Assembly: GCA_036268875.1 (NCBI GenBank)
Contig: DATATI010000014.1
Coordinates: 1 to 64,000, forward strand
Direction: 5' to 3'
Length of the DNA stretch: 64,000 bases
From: Polyangia bacterium
GTDB taxonomy: Bacteria; Myxococcota_A; Polyangia; Fen-1088
The notes under the pieces were generated by a model. That model was not told the origin of the DNA, ran no database searches, and worked only from the letters and a program-made list of their open reading frames with translations. The stretch's first letter is position 1. Every line of letters begins with the position of its first letter. Below, piece by piece: positions 8,301 through 36,148 of the stretch. The translations under genes were made by a program, and so were the position numbers.

Positions 8301-11300
8301 AAGGGCTTGACCACTGCAACTGCAGCTTGGCGTTCACCGACGCCACCGAGGAGAACGTCAGGGTGATGTGGTGGCGCACGCCCGCCTGCAGCGGGATGCC
8401 GGCGGTCTGGTGTTGGGTGCCGATGGGATTCGGTGGCGGGCGCTTGCAGTCGACGTGGCAGATGCTGGCCACCTCGGCCACGCACTTGGCGTCCCACTCG
8501 GGCTCGCTCGAGTAATAAGACAGATAGCCGCCGTTGCAGCAGTACGGATCGGCGGTCGGGCTGGCCGGGTTGCAGATGGCGTCCACGCAGGGATTGCAGG
8601 CCGGCTCGGCCAGCGAGCTGGCCGCCAGCTTCTCGCCGATGTCGCAGATGTCGTGCGAGCAAGCCGGCGGATCGTTGTTGGCCGGCGGATCCGGCAACAG
8701 CACCGACGTGCCGTCGATTTTCAGATCCGGGCCGCCATCGCCGATCACGTCGAACGTGAACGTGTCGTCGACCGCCGCCACCACGTCGCCTTGCCAGGTG
8801 ACGGTGAACGGCGCCACCACGCTCTCCGGCACCGGCGTCTTCGACGAGAAATCGATGTCGGGATCGACGCTGGTGGTCGTGAAGGGAAAGCCCATCGTCG
8901 TGGTGTACTGGCCGAAGAGGCCGCTGCCGATGCCGGGCGCCACCTTGTAAAGCAGCGACGCCGGGATCGCCGTCTGGGCGCCGGCGCCTGGCAACTGCCA
9001 GGTCAGGCCGGCGGTGGACAGCGACGGATCGGGCGCGCTTTGAAAGCGATCCCAGCGCAAGGCGTACTTGCCGCCCTGAACCAGCTCGATCGTTCCCTGC
9101 GTGGTGCCGGGCGCGGTGAACCAGTCGAAGACCTTCACGCCGTTGATGAACAGGCGGCTCGGCTGGGTGGCCGATTGAAAGGTGAACGTGCCGCTGGCGG
9201 GCGCTTCGATCCAGCCGGTGGTGGCGGCGGCGAACGCGTAGCCGTCGGTGGCGGCGGAGGCGTCGGTGGCGCTGCAACTCTCGGCGGCGGCGGTGCAGGC
9301 GTCGGTCCAGCCGACGGTGCAGCAGTCGCCCAGGCCGCCCTTGCCACAGACGTTCGCCGCGCACGCGCTGCACGCGGGAGCGAGCGCGTCGCCGTTCATG
9401 TGTTCGCTGTGCGCGCAGGTCGGCACGCGCACGATCCCGTTGCGCAGCAGCGACGGCGGCGCGGCCGGTCCGTCAGCGGTGGCGGCGTCGATCGCGTAGG
9501 CGAACACGTTGCCGGTCAATCCCGTCGGCAGCAGGAAGGAAAACCCGTGGCGCGCGCTGGTCAGGTTGGTGCCGTCGCAGGCGGCGCTCACTTCCAAGGC
9601 CAGTGGCGCGGCCAGAGCCTGATCGGCGTAGACGCGTCCGAGCGGAACGCTGCCCGCCTGCCCGAGCGGTGCGCCGCTGTACAGATCGACCGACACGGCG
9701 GCGCCCGACCACTCCGGATCGCACGCCCAGCCCAGCACCGTCGCCGCGGACGCGCCGGTGCTGACGCCGTCGATGCGCTCGACGACGCCGCCCGCGCCCT
9801 GCAAGAACTTCGTCGAGCGGGCGGCGTTCACTGGCTCGTCGTCGGGCCACACGTGGCCCACGGGCCAGCACGGCCGGGTGGACGCGGGCGTGTCGTCGCA
9901 GGTGGTGACGCCGTCGACGACGTCCTGGCAGACGAGGGCGCGCTTGGACACGCAGGCCGCCGTCCAACCCGCGGCGCCCGGGCTGTTGGAGCAGCACTCG
10001 GGGTTGGTGCGGCAAACCGCTTTGGTGCACGGGCTGCAATCCCAGGGCAGCCCTTCACCGACGGCGTCTTCATGGTGCGTGCAGTAGTTCGGCGAGAAAA
10101 CTTGAATGCGCGGCGTGCCGGTCAGCGGGTTGGCCCAGCGGCCGTCTTCAAAATGGTCGTGCTCCAGGCGATCGATGTCGGCCAGATCGGCGCAGTCGCC
10201 GACCGGCGACAGCTCGCGGTAACGCGTGCGCTGCAACGCAGACGCTTGCATGGTCGGCGCCCCGGTGGCCGGATCGAATGAGACGAAATATTCCTGCGCC
10301 ATCATCCACAGCGAATCGGGGTTGGCCCTGTCGAACGGATTTTCGATGGCGTTCGGCCAGATGATCTGGCGCGTGTCGAAGAGATCGACCAGCGTGCCGG
10401 CCTTGGTGAAGCTCTTGCCGTCCTGGCAGTAACCGGCGCGCGCGGCGATCTTGCAGACGTTGTAATAGTCCTTGAGGCCGAAGGTCTGCTCGGCCCAGTC
10501 GGTGCCGCCGAAGACCCAGGCGGTGGTGTTTTGCCACGGGCGATAGCCCCAGTTGCGTGTGCACTTCGACGCCACGCCGGTGGCGGTGCAGGCGAAGACG
10601 AACTTGTTCGGGTTGACGAACGGATCCTCGGGAATGGCGATGGCCGAGGCGTCGTTGGTCAGCGGGTTGAACGGACACAGCGAATACCATTGCCCGCTCC
10701 ACTTGTGAAAGTAATAGACGGTGTAAAGCGTGACGTCGTTCTGTTGTTCCTCGGCGCGGTGAAACAGGTTGGGGCTGGGATCGGGGCGTTCGCTGGCGAT
10801 GTAAAGGTCGATGTCCTCGGCCGGATTGTTTGACGGATCCAGCAGGTGCGCCACCGCGTAGTGACCGACCGCCGACCTGCCGGCGACGGAGATGTAGTCG
10901 CCCGGCCCCGAGCTGATGTTCGCCCCATCCGTCAATTCATAAGGAACGATCGGGCTGGCGATGTCGGTGCCGCGAATATCGACCGAGCCGATGGTGGTGC
11001 CCTTCAGCGACGCGGCGACGACGTCGGTGCCTTGCACGACCACGCCCTGGGCGGTCAGCCCCTGCGCGGTCAATCCCTGGGCGGTCAGTCCTTGCGCGGT
11101 CAGCCCTTGTGCCGTGAGACCTTGCGCGGTCAACCCTTGGGCGGTCAGTCCCTGGGCGGTCAGCCCCTGCGCGGTGAGACCTTGGGCAGTCAAACCCTGA
11201 GCAGTCAACCCCTGCGCGGTCAGCCCCTGGGCCGTCAACCCCTGCGCCGTCAGACCGGCGCGTCCCTCGTGTGGCACCGCCAGCAGCAGGGCCAGAAAAC

Positions 11301-28610: not shown

Positions 28611-29972
28611 ATGAACCTCGCTGCCACGCTGCGCGGGAACACCTACCGATTCAAGGACGTCAAAGACGTCTTGGCCAAGGCCAATGAAGAAAAATCCGGC
28701 GATCGCCTGGCCGGCGTGGCGGCGGCGTCGGTCTCCGAACGCGTGGCGGCCAAGCGCGTGCTGGCCGAGCTGACCCTGCACGACCTGCACGAAAACCCGG
28801 TGGTGCCGCCGGAGAAGGACGCGGTGACGCGCCTGATCCTGGACGATCTGCAGCGCCCGGTCTACGAGTCGTGCAAGTCATGGACAGTGGCCCAGCTGCG
28901 CGAGCACGTGCTGTCCGATCGCACCACCGGCGCCGATCTGCTGCGGCTATCGCGAGGATTGACCAGCGAGATGATCGCCGCCTGCGCCAAGCTGATGACC
29001 AACCTGGATCTCATCAGCGCGGCCCGAAAGATCCGGGTGGTGGTGCACGCCGCCAACACGCTGGGCCTGGAAGGCCGGCTGTCGACGCGCCTGCAGCCCA
29101 ACCACCCGTCCGATTCGGTGGAAGGGATCTTGGCCTCGCTGCGCGACGGGCTGTCGTTCGGCAGCGGCGACGCGGTCATCGGCATCAACCCGGTCACCGA
29201 CAATCCCGAGCAAACCACGGCGATCCTGAACTCCAGCGGCGATTTCATGCGGCAGTGGCGCATCCCCACGCAGAACTGCTGCCTGGCCCACGTCACCACG
29301 CAGATGAAGGCGTTGGAGGGCGGCGCGCAGCTGGGCCTGATGTTCCAGTCCATCGCTGGCACGGAAAAAGCGTTGAAGAGTTTCGGCGTGACGTTGTCGC
29401 TGCTCGACGAGGCGCACGACATGACGCAGAAGCTGGGACAGGTGCAGGGACCGAACGTCATGTACTTCGAGACCGGGCAGGGCTCGGCGCTGTCGGCGGA
29501 TGCGCACGAGGGCGCTGACCAGATGACAGTGGAGGCGCGCAACTACGGTTTGGCTCGCCATTACAAGCCGTTCCTGGTGAACACCGTCGTCGGCTTCATC
29601 GGGCCCGAGTATCTATATGATGCCCGGCAGATCACGCGCGCCGGGTTGGAGGATCACTTCATGGGCAAGCTGCACGGGATCCCGATGGGCTGCGACGCCT
29701 GCTACACCAACCACGCCGACGCCGACCAGAACGATCTGGAAAGCCTGGAAGTGTTGTTGGCCACGGCGGGCTGCAACTTCTTCATGGGCCTGCCCATGGG
29801 CGACGACGTCATGCTGAACTATCAATCGACGTCGTTTCACGACGGCGCGGCCTTGCGCCAGTTGCTGGGATTGCGACCGGCCCCAGAGTTTGAAGCATGG
29901 CTGGAAGAAATGGGCATCATGGAGAACGGCAAGCTGACCGCTCGGGCCGGCGACGCGAGCTTGTTCGCATGA
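28611..29972 (+). CDS. eutB: Ethanolamine ammonia-lyase large subunit
   Basis: EutB forms the TIM-barrel catalytic subunit that, with EutC and adenosylcobalamin, splits ethanolamine into acetaldehyde and ammonia. The 453 residues match the usual EutB length. Recognisable blocks are YRFKDVKDVLAKANEEKSGD, RLQPNHPSDSVEGIL, IGINPVTDNPEQT, QNCCLAHVTTQM, MYFETGQGSALSA, and MGCDACYTNHADADQND. The gene starts 8 bases after hisD, and its stop overlaps the next start (ATGA). No cobalamin riboswitch is visible ahead of it. Confidence 0.95.
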   Translation: MNLAATLRGNTYRFKDVKDVLAKANEEKSGDRLAGVAAASVSERVAAKRVLAELTLHDLHENPVVPPEKDAVTRLILDDLQRPVYESCKSWTVAQLREHVLSDRTTGADLLRLSRGLTSEMIAACAKLMTNLDLISAARKIRVVVHAANTLGLEGRLSTRLQPNHPSDSVEGILASLRDGLSFGSGDAVIGINPVTDNPEQTTAILNSSGDFMRQWRIPTQNCCLAHVTTQMKALEGGAQLGLMFQSIAGTEKALKSFGVTLSLLDEAHDMTQKLGQVQGPNVMYFETGQGSALSADAHEGADQMTVEARNYGLARHYKPFLVNTVVGFIGPEYLYDARQITRAGLEDHFMGKLHGIPMGCDACYTNHADADQNDLESLEVLLATAGCNFFMGLPMGDDVMLNYQSTSFHDGAALRQLLGLRPAPEFEAWLEEMGIMENGKLTARAGDASLFA

Positions 29973-30958
29973 CCCGCGGCGCGCTTTCGCTTTCGCTGCC
30001 GCTGATCAGTCTGACGATGATGGCGTGCGCGTCGGAGCCACCGCCGCCGCCGCAGGTGGCGGCGCGCCCGGCGCCGCCGCCGGTTCCTGAACCGTCGCCG
30101 CCAGCGGAGGAAGCGGCGGCAGAGGCAGCGGCCCTGGCCGCCGCGCCGACGCCGGTCGACGGGGTGGTGACGGCGCTGGGCGTGCAGCGAGCTGATCTGG
30201 TGTGGAGCCCGGCGAAAAAAACCTTCGCCGTTGTCGTGCCGACAAAAGTCGACACGACAGGGGTGCCGCATCGCCGCCGCGCAAAACGGCCGCCACCGGC
30301 GACCATCGCCCTCTACGCGTCTGATGGCGAACCGCTGGGCAGCTATCGCGCCTTGAGCGTCGGCGCCATCAGCGACCTGCGTTTTCTCGGCGAGGAACGC
30401 CTGTTTTATTTGCTGCCCGCCAGACCGGCGCCGTCCGTTCGCGCGCACGGCCGCGGCATCGTGCTGCCGCCGCCGCTGCGGTACGCGCTGCAGCCGTTGA
30501 AACCGGGCGCGCGGCCCGTCGCCTGTACCGGGCGATCGTTCGTCTTCTCGCCGGCCGGGGATCACGTGGCGTACTTGACCGGCGATGCCAAGCGCCAGCG
30601 TCTCTTCGCCGATGGTGAGGCGGCGTATCCGCGGCGCGGCTTCACCACCATCCAGGGCGAAGCCGCCTGGTCGCTCGACGGCGCCAGCCTGGCCCTGATC
30701 GAAAGCGGCCCGCACCCACGGCTGGTGGTCCTGGTCGAGTTCGACAACCCCAGCGGCGACAACACCTGGCCGCTGCCGCCGGAAGCCGCCGTCGATTCGT
30801 CGCTGCACGTTTACTGGGCGGGTCAGGGCAAGCTGGTGGTTGGCCCGTCGCTGACCAAGCCGCTGTTCGCCACCTCGTTTCATCGTGATCCGGCGCCGGT
30901 GGTCAGCATGCCCGCCGAATCGCCGGCCGCCGTCGCGTCGCCCGCCGAGCGTCCCTGA
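29969..30958 (+). CDS. Lipoprotein gene embedded between eutB and eutC
   Basis: This encodes 329 residues. MTRGALSLSLPLISLTMMAC is a lipoprotein signal with Cys20, followed by a Pro/Ala/Glu-rich linker. The rest has recurring strands such as LVWSPAKKTFAVVVP, FVFSPAGDHVAYLTGD and AAWSLDGASLALIESG, the W-S-P/D-G pattern of TolB or WD40-like propellers. The start overlaps the eutB stop by four bases (ATGA) and the stop overlaps the eutC start (TGATG), so all three are translationally coupled. Lyase subunits are cytoplasmic, so an exported partner between them is odd; it could sense or bind a substrate, or be a chance insertion. No known Eut protein matches. Confidence 0.75.
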   Translation: MTRGALSLSLPLISLTMMACASEPPPPPQVAARPAPPPVPEPSPPAEEAAAEAAALAAAPTPVDGVVTALGVQRADLVWSPAKKTFAVVVPTKVDTTGVPHRRRAKRPPPATIALYASDGEPLGSYRALSVGAISDLRFLGEERLFYLLPARPAPSVRAHGRGIVLPPPLRYALQPLKPGARPVACTGRSFVFSPAGDHVAYLTGDAKRQRLFADGEAAYPRRGFTTIQGEAAWSLDGASLALIESGPHPRLVVLVEFDNPSGDNTWPLPPEAAVDSSLHVYWAGQGKLVVGPSLTKPLFATSFHRDPAPVVSMPAESPAAVASPAERP

Positions 30959-31800
30959 TGCTGATCGATCGCGCCCGCATCGAAGAGATGGTCCGGCAAG
31001 CGCTGACCGGCGCGGGCGGCGAGGGTGCGGCGGCGCGCCCGGTGGATTCAGCCGGCGGCCTTTTGTTGACCCCCGATCGCGGCGTGAACCTCGGCGAGCC
31101 GTTTGATCCGCGCGCCATGATCGGCATCCTGGCGGCCACCCCGGCGCGCATCGTCGTTGGCCGCAGCGGGGTTCGTTACCGCACCAACACCATGCTGCGC
31201 TTTCGCGCCGACCACGCCGCCGCCAAGGACGCCGTGCTGTCGGAGGTGGACTCGGCGCTGCTGTCGCGCCTGGGTTTGTTCGAGGTGATGTCGCGCGCGC
31301 CGGACAAGCCGACGTTCTTGCAGCGGCCCGATCTCGGACGCGCCCTGTCCGACGCGGGCAAGGAAGAGATCTCTCGCCGCATCGGGCGGGCGCCGACGCT
31401 GGTGATCATCTACGGCGACGGTCTGTCGGCGGCGGCGCTGAACCAGAACCTGCCCGAGTTTCACGGCGCGCTGCTGCCGGCCCTGGCCTCGCGCGGGATC
31501 CAGCACGCGCCGCCGTTCTTCGTGCGCTACGCCCGGGTGAAGATCATGGACGAGATCGCGCGCCTGACCGCGGCCCAGGCCGCGCTGTTCGTGTGCGGTG
31601 AACGGCCGGGGTTGGGCTTTGCCGATTCGTTGTCGGCATATTTCATCTACCAGCCGGCCGAGGGCGCCACCGACGCCGATCGCGAGGTCATCTCGAACAT
31701 CAACCCGCGCGGCCGCGTCCCCGCCGAGGCGGCGCGTGACGTGGCGGCGGCCATCGAGCGCGTGCTGCGTAACAAGAAATCAGGCGTGGCCTTTCCCTAA
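30958..31800 (+). CDS. eutC: Ethanolamine ammonia-lyase small subunit
   Basis: EutC caps the EutB barrel and helps bind adenosylcobalamin. The 280 residues include TMLRFRADHAAAKDAVLSEV, TLVIIYGDGLSAAALNQN, VKIMDEIARL, LFVCGERPGLGFADSLSAYF and ADREVISNINPRG, all typical. The start overlaps the stop of the embedded lipoprotein gene in TGATG. It is followed 18 bases later by the EutL-adenosyltransferase fusion. Confidence 0.95.
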   Translation: MLIDRARIEEMVRQALTGAGGEGAAARPVDSAGGLLLTPDRGVNLGEPFDPRAMIGILAATPARIVVGRSGVRYRTNTMLRFRADHAAAKDAVLSEVDSALLSRLGLFEVMSRAPDKPTFLQRPDLGRALSDAGKEEISRRIGRAPTLVIIYGDGLSAAALNQNLPEFHGALLPALASRGIQHAPPFFVRYARVKIMDEIARLTAAQAALFVCGERPGLGFADSLSAYFIYQPAEGATDADREVISNINPRGRVPAEAARDVAAAIERVLRNKKSGVAFP

Positions 31801-31818: not shown

Positions 31819-33174
31819 GTGAAGCTGGATCTGCCACCCGTCAAGCCTCGCGCGCTTTCGGTGCGCCGCATTCCGGAAGCAGCGCCGGCGCTGGCGGCGT
31901 CGCTGGGGTTGCCAGCGGCGCGGCGCTCGCTGGGGATCATCACCGCCACGTCGGACGACGCGCTCTTCGCCGCCTTGGACCAAGGGACCAAGGCGTCGCC
32001 GGCCGACGTCGTCTACGCCAAGTCGTTCTATGCCGGCTCCGGCTATCCGTCGGGCCCGCTGTCGGGCGAGTGCATCGGCATCTACGCCGGCGTCGATCCC
32101 GCGGAGGTCGACGCGGCGCTGGCCGCCTGTCTTGGTTATCTGGAAAACGAAGCCTGGTTCTACGCCGTCGAGACTGCGGAGGATCCGACGCGGCCGGTGA
32201 TCTTTTTTCCGCACGTGATCGCCTCGCTGGGCCGGTATCTGGCGCCGCTGGCGGACGTGCCGGAGGGCAGCGCGATGGCGTACCTGATCGCGCCGCCGCT
32301 GGAATCGATCGTCGGCGTCGACGCCGCTTGCAAGGGGGCGCCGGTGCGCCTGGCGAAATGGTTCGGGCCGCCGTCGGAGACCAACTTTGGCGGCGGTTAT
32401 CTGGCGGGCGATCTGCCGGCCTGCGAAGCGGCGGCGCGCGCCTTTGCCAGCGCGGTGATCGACGTCTGTCAGGCGCCGCTGCACGCCCGGGCCGCGCGCG
32501 GCGGCGGCGAGCTGGGGCCGGCGGCGACGGCGGTGCGCGCGGCGGGCGGGGCACCGTCGGGAAAATTTCAAGCGCTGGACACCGGCCAGCGGTTCAATGA
32601 AAAGCCCGATCACCTGACCCACCTGGTCGATGACCAGACGCTGGTGCGCAAGACACACCCTCGCATCATCGCGCGCGGCAAGCTGGATCTGCTGCAAGCG
32701 GCGTTGCTGGACGCGCAGGTGGCCGCCGACGCCGAGGAAGCACGGGCGCTGGTCGGCGAGCTCGGCGAATTGCTGGAGCTGGCGCGCGCCCTGGTCGGCG
32801 CCGAGGTCACCGGCCGCCCGCTGGCGCCAGTGCGCCTGTTCGGGATGAGCGGCCTCGAGATCCGCGACGCCACCCACCACACGCGCGAGCTTTACGGGGT
32901 GCCGTTCATGTACCCCGACGTGCGGCAGGGACCGCTCATCGCCAAGCTGAACCTGGCCCGGGCCATCGCACGCGAGGCGGAAGTGTCCGTGCTGCAGGCG
33001 TTCCCCGCGGCGACCGGCGGACCGACGGCACCGCCCGCGCGCGCGGATCTGGCCGAGGCGCTGAATCGGGTCTCATCGGCGTTGTACCTTCTGGCCTGCA
33101 AATACGTCGCTGGCCGCTATGAAGGCAACCGCCGCCCGAAAGGCCCGGTGCGCGGCTGGCGGCCGCCGGCGTGA
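31819..33174 (+). CDS. EutL shell protein fused to EutT-type cobalamin adenosyltransferase
   Basis: Residues 1-220 of this 451-residue protein match EutL, the trimeric tandem-BMC shell protein of ethanolamine microcompartments: RSLGIITATSDDA, VVYAKSFYAG, MAYLIAPPLESIVGVDAA, PPSETNFGGGYLAGD and ACEAAARAF. After a linker (about 221-258), residues 259-440 match EutT cobalamin adenosyltransferases: KPDHLTHL, a THPRI helix start, RALVGAEVTGRPL, AKLNLARAIAREAEV and ALNRVSSALYLL. The HX11CCXXC metal motif of enteric EutT is absent. EutT makes adenosylcobalamin, the cofactor of EutBC encoded just upstream. The start is GTG at 31819, 18 bases after eutC. I know of no described fusion of this kind. No other shell gene is in the window, so whether it joins a compartment is open. 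Confidence 0.85.
   Translation: MKLDLPPVKPRALSVRRIPEAAPALAASLGLPAARRSLGIITATSDDALFAALDQGTKASPADVVYAKSFYAGSGYPSGPLSGECIGIYAGVDPAEVDAALAACLGYLENEAWFYAVETAEDPTRPVIFFPHVIASLGRYLAPLADVPEGSAMAYLIAPPLESIVGVDAACKGAPVRLAKWFGPPSETNFGGGYLAGDLPACEAAARAFASAVIDVCQAPLHARAARGGGELGPAATAVRAAGGAPSGKFQALDTGQRFNEKPDHLTHLVDDQTLVRKTHPRIIARGKLDLLQAALLDAQVAADAEEARALVGELGELLELARALVGAEVTGRPLAPVRLFGMSGLEIRDATHHTRELYGVPFMYPDVRQGPLIAKLNLARAIAREAEVSVLQAFPAATGGPTAPPARADLAEALNRVSSALYLLACKYVAGRYEGNRRPKGPVRGWRPPA

Positions 33175-33236: not shown

Positions 33237-36148
<2,912 letters not shown>

Follow-up and report, generated by a model that had tools for sequence, protein, structure and literature searches.

The subject of this work is a gene from a Polyangia bacterium (assembly GCA_036268875.1) that joins the microcompartment shell protein EutL to a EutT-type ATP:cob(I)alamin adenosyltransferase. 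It lies on contig DATATI010000014.1, within positions 1 to 64,000, and we refer to this whole 64,000-nucleotide stretch as the window. The genes for the two subunits of ethanolamine ammonia-lyase, eutB and eutC, lie directly upstream of the fusion gene (31819..33174, + strand), which starts after a gap of 18 bases behind the eutC stop (31800). The strong link to EutBC that had been proposed from the letters of the window alone is thus upheld.

A single open frame for EutL and an adenosyltransferase

The fusion gene has a GTG start and encodes 451 amino acids. In the translation of the window, the frame is open from the GTG at 31819 to the stop at 33172-33174, with no internal stops, and the order within the protein is EutL (residues 7-222), a disordered linker (about 223-256) and a EutT-type adenosyltransferase core (about 257-430). 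A Pfam search placed BMC and Cob_adeno_trans each above its own cut-off. An earlier sequence-only reading had described one uninterrupted frame of EutL and EutT and had suggested a profile search for both families; the open 451-codon frame and the Pfam and NCBIfam matches bear it out, with EutL and Cob_adeno_trans each detected in the translation. Another 26 full-length orthologues, taken from other assemblies, share this two-domain order, again with no internal stop; with the window's gene they make up the 27 full-length sequences of our alignment. Because the same fusion recurs in these 26 orthologues of other assemblies, the indel or misjoin between the halves that had been named as a possible refutation is ruled out. 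The EutL-adenosyltransferase fusion is a real gene. An AlphaFold2 model of the whole protein has a mean predicted local distance difference test score (pLDDT) of 85.5 and consists of two domains with a disordered linker between them; with this model, Foldseek finds EutL and the PduO-type adenosyltransferase 3ci1.

The EutL domain, a tandem BMC shell domain (31837..32484, + strand), matches NF011934 (EutL) with 241 bits over residues 7-222, where the cut-off is 198, and TIGR04502 with E=7.9e-76 and 254 bits, which is under the strict cut-off of 300 for that model. A sequence search of the PDB matched the first half of the fusion to EutL 3u27 (E=9e-57), and Foldseek aligned the predicted fold of this half to the same structure with a template-modelling (TM) score of 0.88 by target length. 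The curated EutL model and the modelled EutL fold both place it in the EutL family. Compared with the EutL structures of E. coli, C. perfringens and L. buccalis, the domain is alike and full-length, with 36-47% identity in structural alignment and TM scores of 0.85-0.93 by target length, whereas the fusion has about 230 more C-terminal residues, which include the enzyme domain.

The linker (residues 223-256; 32485..32586, + strand) has pLDDT values below 50 at residues 223-245 and is fast-evolving, with amino-acid change in the orthologues quicker there than in either domain. The core that follows (residues 257-430; 32587..33108, + strand) matches PF01923 over residues 267-427 (E=4.6e-12, 46.8 bits; cut-off 24). 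Its closest named family is EutT, since NF011595 matches residues 257-427 with E=2e-17 over profile positions 85-246, at a score of 62.9 bits that lies far below the equivalog cut-off of 226. This match begins at EutT position 85, and the second half is therefore a EutT core without the N-terminus. The core contains the motifs KPxxxTH...LVxKxHP...GxxDxL, R-x3-R-x2-E and NRxS, and its KP...TH and RGxxD motifs together with the R/R/E/N/S residues assign it to the EutT core type. Residues D290, R381, R385, E388, N416 and S419 are invariant. By spacing and by alignment to the PduO-type enzyme that the same genome encodes separately, R381, R385, E388 and S419 correspond to Arg186, Arg190, Glu193 and Ser217 of human MMAB, which touch ATP and adenosylcobalamin (AdoCbl) at homotrimer interfaces (PMC9262797). 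The ATP- and AdoCbl-binding residues of MMAB are kept in all 25 of the aligned fusions.

When the core is modelled alone, the AlphaFold2 model reaches a pLDDT of 89.9 and a predicted TM score (pTM) of 0.86. Foldseek ranks PduO-type adenosyltransferases first for this model, at modest TM scores of about 0.5-0.64 by query and with identities of 15-24% to the best of them. The predicted monomer would thus have the PduO-type helical-bundle fold with a trimer-interface active site. This fold and the ATP and AdoCbl residues are common to the fusion and the PduO-type enzymes, human MMAB among them, whereas the fusion lacks their N-terminal GD.G ATP-binding segment. The ratio of nonsynonymous to synonymous substitution rates (dN/dS) in the orthologue set is about 0.12-0.34 in both halves, indicating purifying selection.

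The protein ends in a C-terminal tail (residues 431-451; 33109..33171, + strand) with the motif GPV[KR]GW[KR]P. The motif is kept throughout the window's sub-clade, where the third place reads GPL or GPI in a few members; neither the other fused sub-clade nor free EutT has it. The motif may serve to bind a partner.

The missing N-terminal module

Free EutT, both that of E. coli and the Bacillota forms encoded beside eutL in Thermincola, has the same core as the fusion, with the R-x3-R-x2-E and NRxS motifs, but its N-terminus is a module of some 50 residues (VITEAxLR...LPxGxxLTPSAxxFL), in whose place the fusion has EutL. A profile of this module finds nothing in the fusion proteins. The fusions also lack the CC..C cluster that E. 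coli EutT has, and so do the Thermincola-type forms. The identification of the second half as EutT therefore stands for the core, and falls for the N-terminal module and the cysteine cluster. A metal-independent class of EutT is reportedly known from Listeria (cited in PMC9426561).

Besides a weak match to EutQ, the module profile finds enzymes of the PTAC and PTA types encoded in other eut loci. A comparison of the EutT module with EutQ N-termini gave an hhalign probability of 92 and a pairwise E=6e-7, the comparison being pairwise and drawn from small hand-picked sets. Residues 9-41 of Salmonella EutQ are needed for shell binding, and EutQ contacts EutL and EutM (PMC12487888). Judged by its sequence, the EutT module is homologous to this shell-binding part of EutQ. 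We infer that covalent fusion to a shell protein took the place of an adaptor that bound the shell non-covalently.

In eut loci, the VITExxxR...LTPSAxxFL module is carried at the N-terminus by EutT, by EutQ and by enzymes of the PTAC and PTA types (L026, L039, L041, L044, L048, L050, L058, L064, L074, L078 and L083, and L114 of E. coli), and its general role may be docking to the shell. In Sporomusa malonica (L039:10527-11870), EutT is fused to a PduL-type phosphotransacylase (PF01923 + PF06130). There too EutT is joined to another Eut protein, but the partner is a phosphotransacylase and not a shell protein.

Distribution and history of the fusion

In GTDB genomes we found 22 fusions of full length (L005-L025 and L027, not L026), which are 44-76% identical, along with many loci that have EutL only. 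Whole-genome searches of relatives added four more (L092-L095). Among 284 evenly drawn Myxococcota genomes, 19 carry the fusion, in family groups f1, f3, f33, f40 and f55, so that the two-domain order is conserved within a clade, as the sequence-only reading had suggested looking for. An earlier search puts the fusion also in family groups f4, f5, f16 and f20, and one fusion locus belongs to a genome that bears the label Oligoflexales. More genomes have EutL alone than have the fusion (about 57 of the 77 EutL-bearing genomes), and in one further genome, G020, the two halves lie at different contig ends.

The fused adenosyltransferase cores form one clade with support 97/97, in a tree with only six outgroup sequences, several of them on long branches and one a fragment. 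The fused EutL domains split into two groups, and a single clade was weakly rejected (p-AU 0.026 in the approximately unbiased test, for a group named after the tree had been seen). The simplest history, and the one that we prefer, is one ancient fusion with later losses in the lineages that have EutL only; two origins or a transfer are possible as an alternative. We do not accept a single origin as a demonstrated fact, because the EutL tree gives two groups. Thermincola and a related Bacillota metagenome-assembled genome have a separate eutT directly after eutL, with the most similar linker end and core, and it is plausible that this eutL-eutT order is ancestral to the fusion.

Shell genes elsewhere in the genome

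The genome comprises 6.15 Mb in 95 contigs, and its shell genes lie away from the fusion locus, on contigs C88 and C90. Contig C88 encodes BMC-H, BMC-T(dp), an aldehyde dehydrogenase and BMC-T(s). The best natural PDB matches of its BMC-H and BMC-T(dp) are the HO shell proteins of Haliangium ochraceum, and its BMC-T(s) is closer to PduT-type proteins. The aldehyde dehydrogenase starts VEEARIQEIVDRVVARIG and EutC starts MLIDRARIEEMVRQALTGAG, and both starts resemble E. coli encapsulation peptides, namely those on EutE and EutC. Contig C90 encodes four BMC-P domains in a row (L112:9901-11097). With its H. ochraceum-like BMC-H and BMC-T(dp), BMC-P and aldehyde dehydrogenase, the genome has the gene content of an HO-type main microcompartment. 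The HO-type shell locus of C88 (L104:7709-11910) also encodes a 162-residue protein without known family (8698-9186), between BMC-H and the dehydrogenase. The BMC-P run of C90 adjoins a DUF711 gene, and on its other side lies the gene of a small lysine-rich protein without family.

BMC-P genes are present in all 26 of the other fusion genomes, and BMC-H, or BMC genes beyond the fusion, in 24 of them; the two exceptions are one fragmented genome and one partial genome of 2.6 Mb. In a set of 59 relatives, BMC-P is present in 18/18 genomes with EutL and in 10/41 without it (Fisher p=2e-8, with kinship ignored), and within the window's family it occurs only in the four genomes that carry the fusion. 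The fusion had been proposed to act at, or in place of, a shell. Of the two, the first is favoured, given BMC-P in every other fusion genome and the HO-type shell locus in its own.

EUT-module satellite loci are known for the HO, SPU3 and SPU6 microcompartments, and the main text of their description (Sutter et al. 2021, PMC8217296) speaks of EutA/B/C and of EutL, with no mention of a fusion to an adenosyltransferase. As in the satellites that this text describes, eutB, eutC and a EutL-type shell gene lie here apart from the main HO-type shell locus, and this gene content classes the window's locus as a EUT-module satellite. It differs in that EutL bears an adenosyltransferase domain and that no EutA was found in the genome. 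In this genome, the search for EutA gave only a 42-residue PF06277 match, which when read out in full proved to be FtsA, and full-length EutA was not found in the 24 fusion genomes searched. Myxococcota and Bdellovibrionota whose EutL is unfused lack EutA just as much, and the Bacillota and Desulfosarcina-type genomes have it; we therefore rejected loss of EutA as a partner specific to the fusion. No tested Myxococcota genome with the EUT module, fused or not, encodes the EutA reactivase, which bears on how ethanolamine ammonia-lyase is reactivated there.

Neighbouring genes

The large-subunit gene eutB (28611..29972, + strand) matches PF06751 with E=6e-211 and NF011649 above its cut-off, and the small-subunit gene eutC (30958..31800, + strand) matches PF05985 with E=9e-74 and NF003971 above its cut-off. 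EutC begins with an encapsulation-peptide-like helix (30958..31017, + strand), which corresponds to MDQKQIEEIVRSVMASMG in E. coli EutC and is present in nearly all fusion loci that have the EutC N-terminus. Between eutB and eutC lies a lipoprotein-like open reading frame (ORF) with no Pfam family above cut-off (29897..30958, + strand), whose true start is probably near the eutB stop and which has relatives in just three other loci (L008, L009 and L011). A gene for a putative envelope protein would thus sit inside this operon. On the other side of the fusion, a class I methyltransferase-like gene (33237..34058, + strand; PF13649) is conserved in position in most of the window's sub-clade. In one relative, a small Cys-rich (zinc-ribbon-like) ORF lies between eutC and the fusion gene (L008:7718-7987). 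We rejected hisD, which lies beside eutB, as a member of the system because it is the sole hisD of the genome. An Rfam search found no B12 riboswitch in the window or in the two shell loci.

Discussion

We propose that the fusion is probably a tile of the shell with its own cofactor enzyme attached, such that AdoCbl regeneration is anchored at the shell beside EutBC. The EutL half would form a trimeric pseudohexamer and enter a facet of the HO-type microcompartment whose genes lie at other loci of the genome. The C-terminal half, tethered by the flexible linker, would be an active EutT-type adenosyltransferase that regenerates AdoCbl for EutBC, which would in turn be recruited through the encapsulation peptide on EutC. 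EutL and PduO-type adenosyltransferases are both trimers, so that one threefold axis could serve both halves. Free EutT would dock by its EutQ-like module, a task that the covalent link to EutL would take over in the fusion.

It is likely, by analogy, that the enzyme half is on the luminal face. EutL is a circularly permuted tandem BMC protein, named BMC-T(sp) in the main text of PMC8217296. In a redesign of PduA, a moved permutation point brought the termini to the convex side (PMC6109187), and the convex side of BMC proteins faces the lumen (PMC11157265); together these favour a luminal enzyme, which would require a supply of ATP to the lumen. More tentatively, and with less than even chances in our estimation, EutL may be more than a substrate pore, namely a cobalamin-handling tile that passes cobalamin to the fused enzyme, making the facet itself the site of coenzyme repair, and the fusion may have replaced a general EutQ-like docking module of Eut cargo enzymes (EutT, EutQ and PTAC). 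EutL has reportedly been crystallised with cobalamin, in work by Thompson from 2014 (cited in PMC12487888), and such a structure makes a hand-over to the enzyme conceivable. We infer insertion into the shell, the face that bears the enzyme, its catalytic activity and any direct transfer of EutL-bound cobalamin.

Several points weigh against this proposal. EutL alone lies next to eutBC in many related Myxococcota. Locus L031 has a EutL-only gene within the fused group that still has the linker start SARGAGERL, and its enzyme half was therefore probably lost secondarily. From these cases, the fusion appears to bring a benefit that bacteria can do without. It may also be that the fused enzyme is non-essential, since the coenzyme could come from the free PduO-type enzyme that the genome also encodes. 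The favoured luminal position is drawn from the topology of other BMC proteins, and the likeness of the EutT module to EutQ from the small sets described above.

It is unlikely that the fusion works without a shell, with EutL as a trimerisation scaffold and a cobalamin or ethanolamine sensor for a cytosolic complex of EutBC and the adenosyltransferase. Such a role would agree with the lack of any other shell gene at the locus, the shell genes being on other contigs, and with the use of ethanolamine by Acinetobacter without a metabolosome (PMC9426561), but it does not account for BMC-P throughout the other fusion genomes, for the restriction of the fusion, in the window's family, to the four genomes with BMC-P, or for the encapsulation-peptide-like helix that EutC retains. 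We give slightly less credence still to a C-terminal half that is catalytically dead and acts as a cobalamin-binding lid or chaperone at the EutL pore, storing or passing AdoCbl made by the free PduO-type enzyme. The presence of that enzyme, the cobalamin reportedly bound to EutL and the low score on the EutT equivalog model would fit such a lid, whereas the full retention of the MMAB ligand residues in the aligned fusions and the low dN/dS throughout the enzyme half speak for catalysis.

An enzyme half on the outer, cytosolic side of the shell, making AdoCbl outside and passing it inward through the EutL pore, appears quite improbable. The EutL C-terminus might lie on either side of an HO-type shell, and the passage of ATP through shell pores may be limited (a point raised in PMC12487888), so that an outside enzyme would obtain ATP more easily; however, the permutation of EutL and the luminal convex termini described above point inward, and EutBC is predicted to be luminal. 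Finally, we dropped the reading that an assembly artefact or sequencing error joined two neighbouring genes, which has next to no chance of being right: the contigs derive from metagenomes, and a lost stop between adjacent eutL and eutT genes such as those of Thermincola and the related Bacillota genome could mimic a fusion, but the orthologues from other assemblies agree in the fusion, the missing EutT N-terminus and the conserved linker end.

A literature search, in which subscription journals were poorly covered so that priority is not certain, gave no report of a EutL-adenosyltransferase fusion, and nothing was found on ethanolamine microcompartments in Myxococcota metagenomes. Both families and the type of locus are known, the EUT-module satellite with EutL having been described before; the fusion architecture and its wide conservation appear unreported, and to this extent the novelty claimed in the sequence-only reading survives.

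Shell proteins are usually viewed as the wall and its pores. A tile and a cofactor-regenerating enzyme that are naturally fused, and stay so across a clade, give direct genetic evidence for B12 recycling at the shell, and they offer a reason for the cobalamin in a EutL crystal structure. The site of AdoCbl regeneration in microcompartments becomes a question that can be answered on one protein, and engineering gains a natural example of an enzyme fixed to a shell facet. For the HO microcompartments, whose assembly is solved and whose substrate is not settled, the fusion helps to assign a function to their EUT-module satellites.
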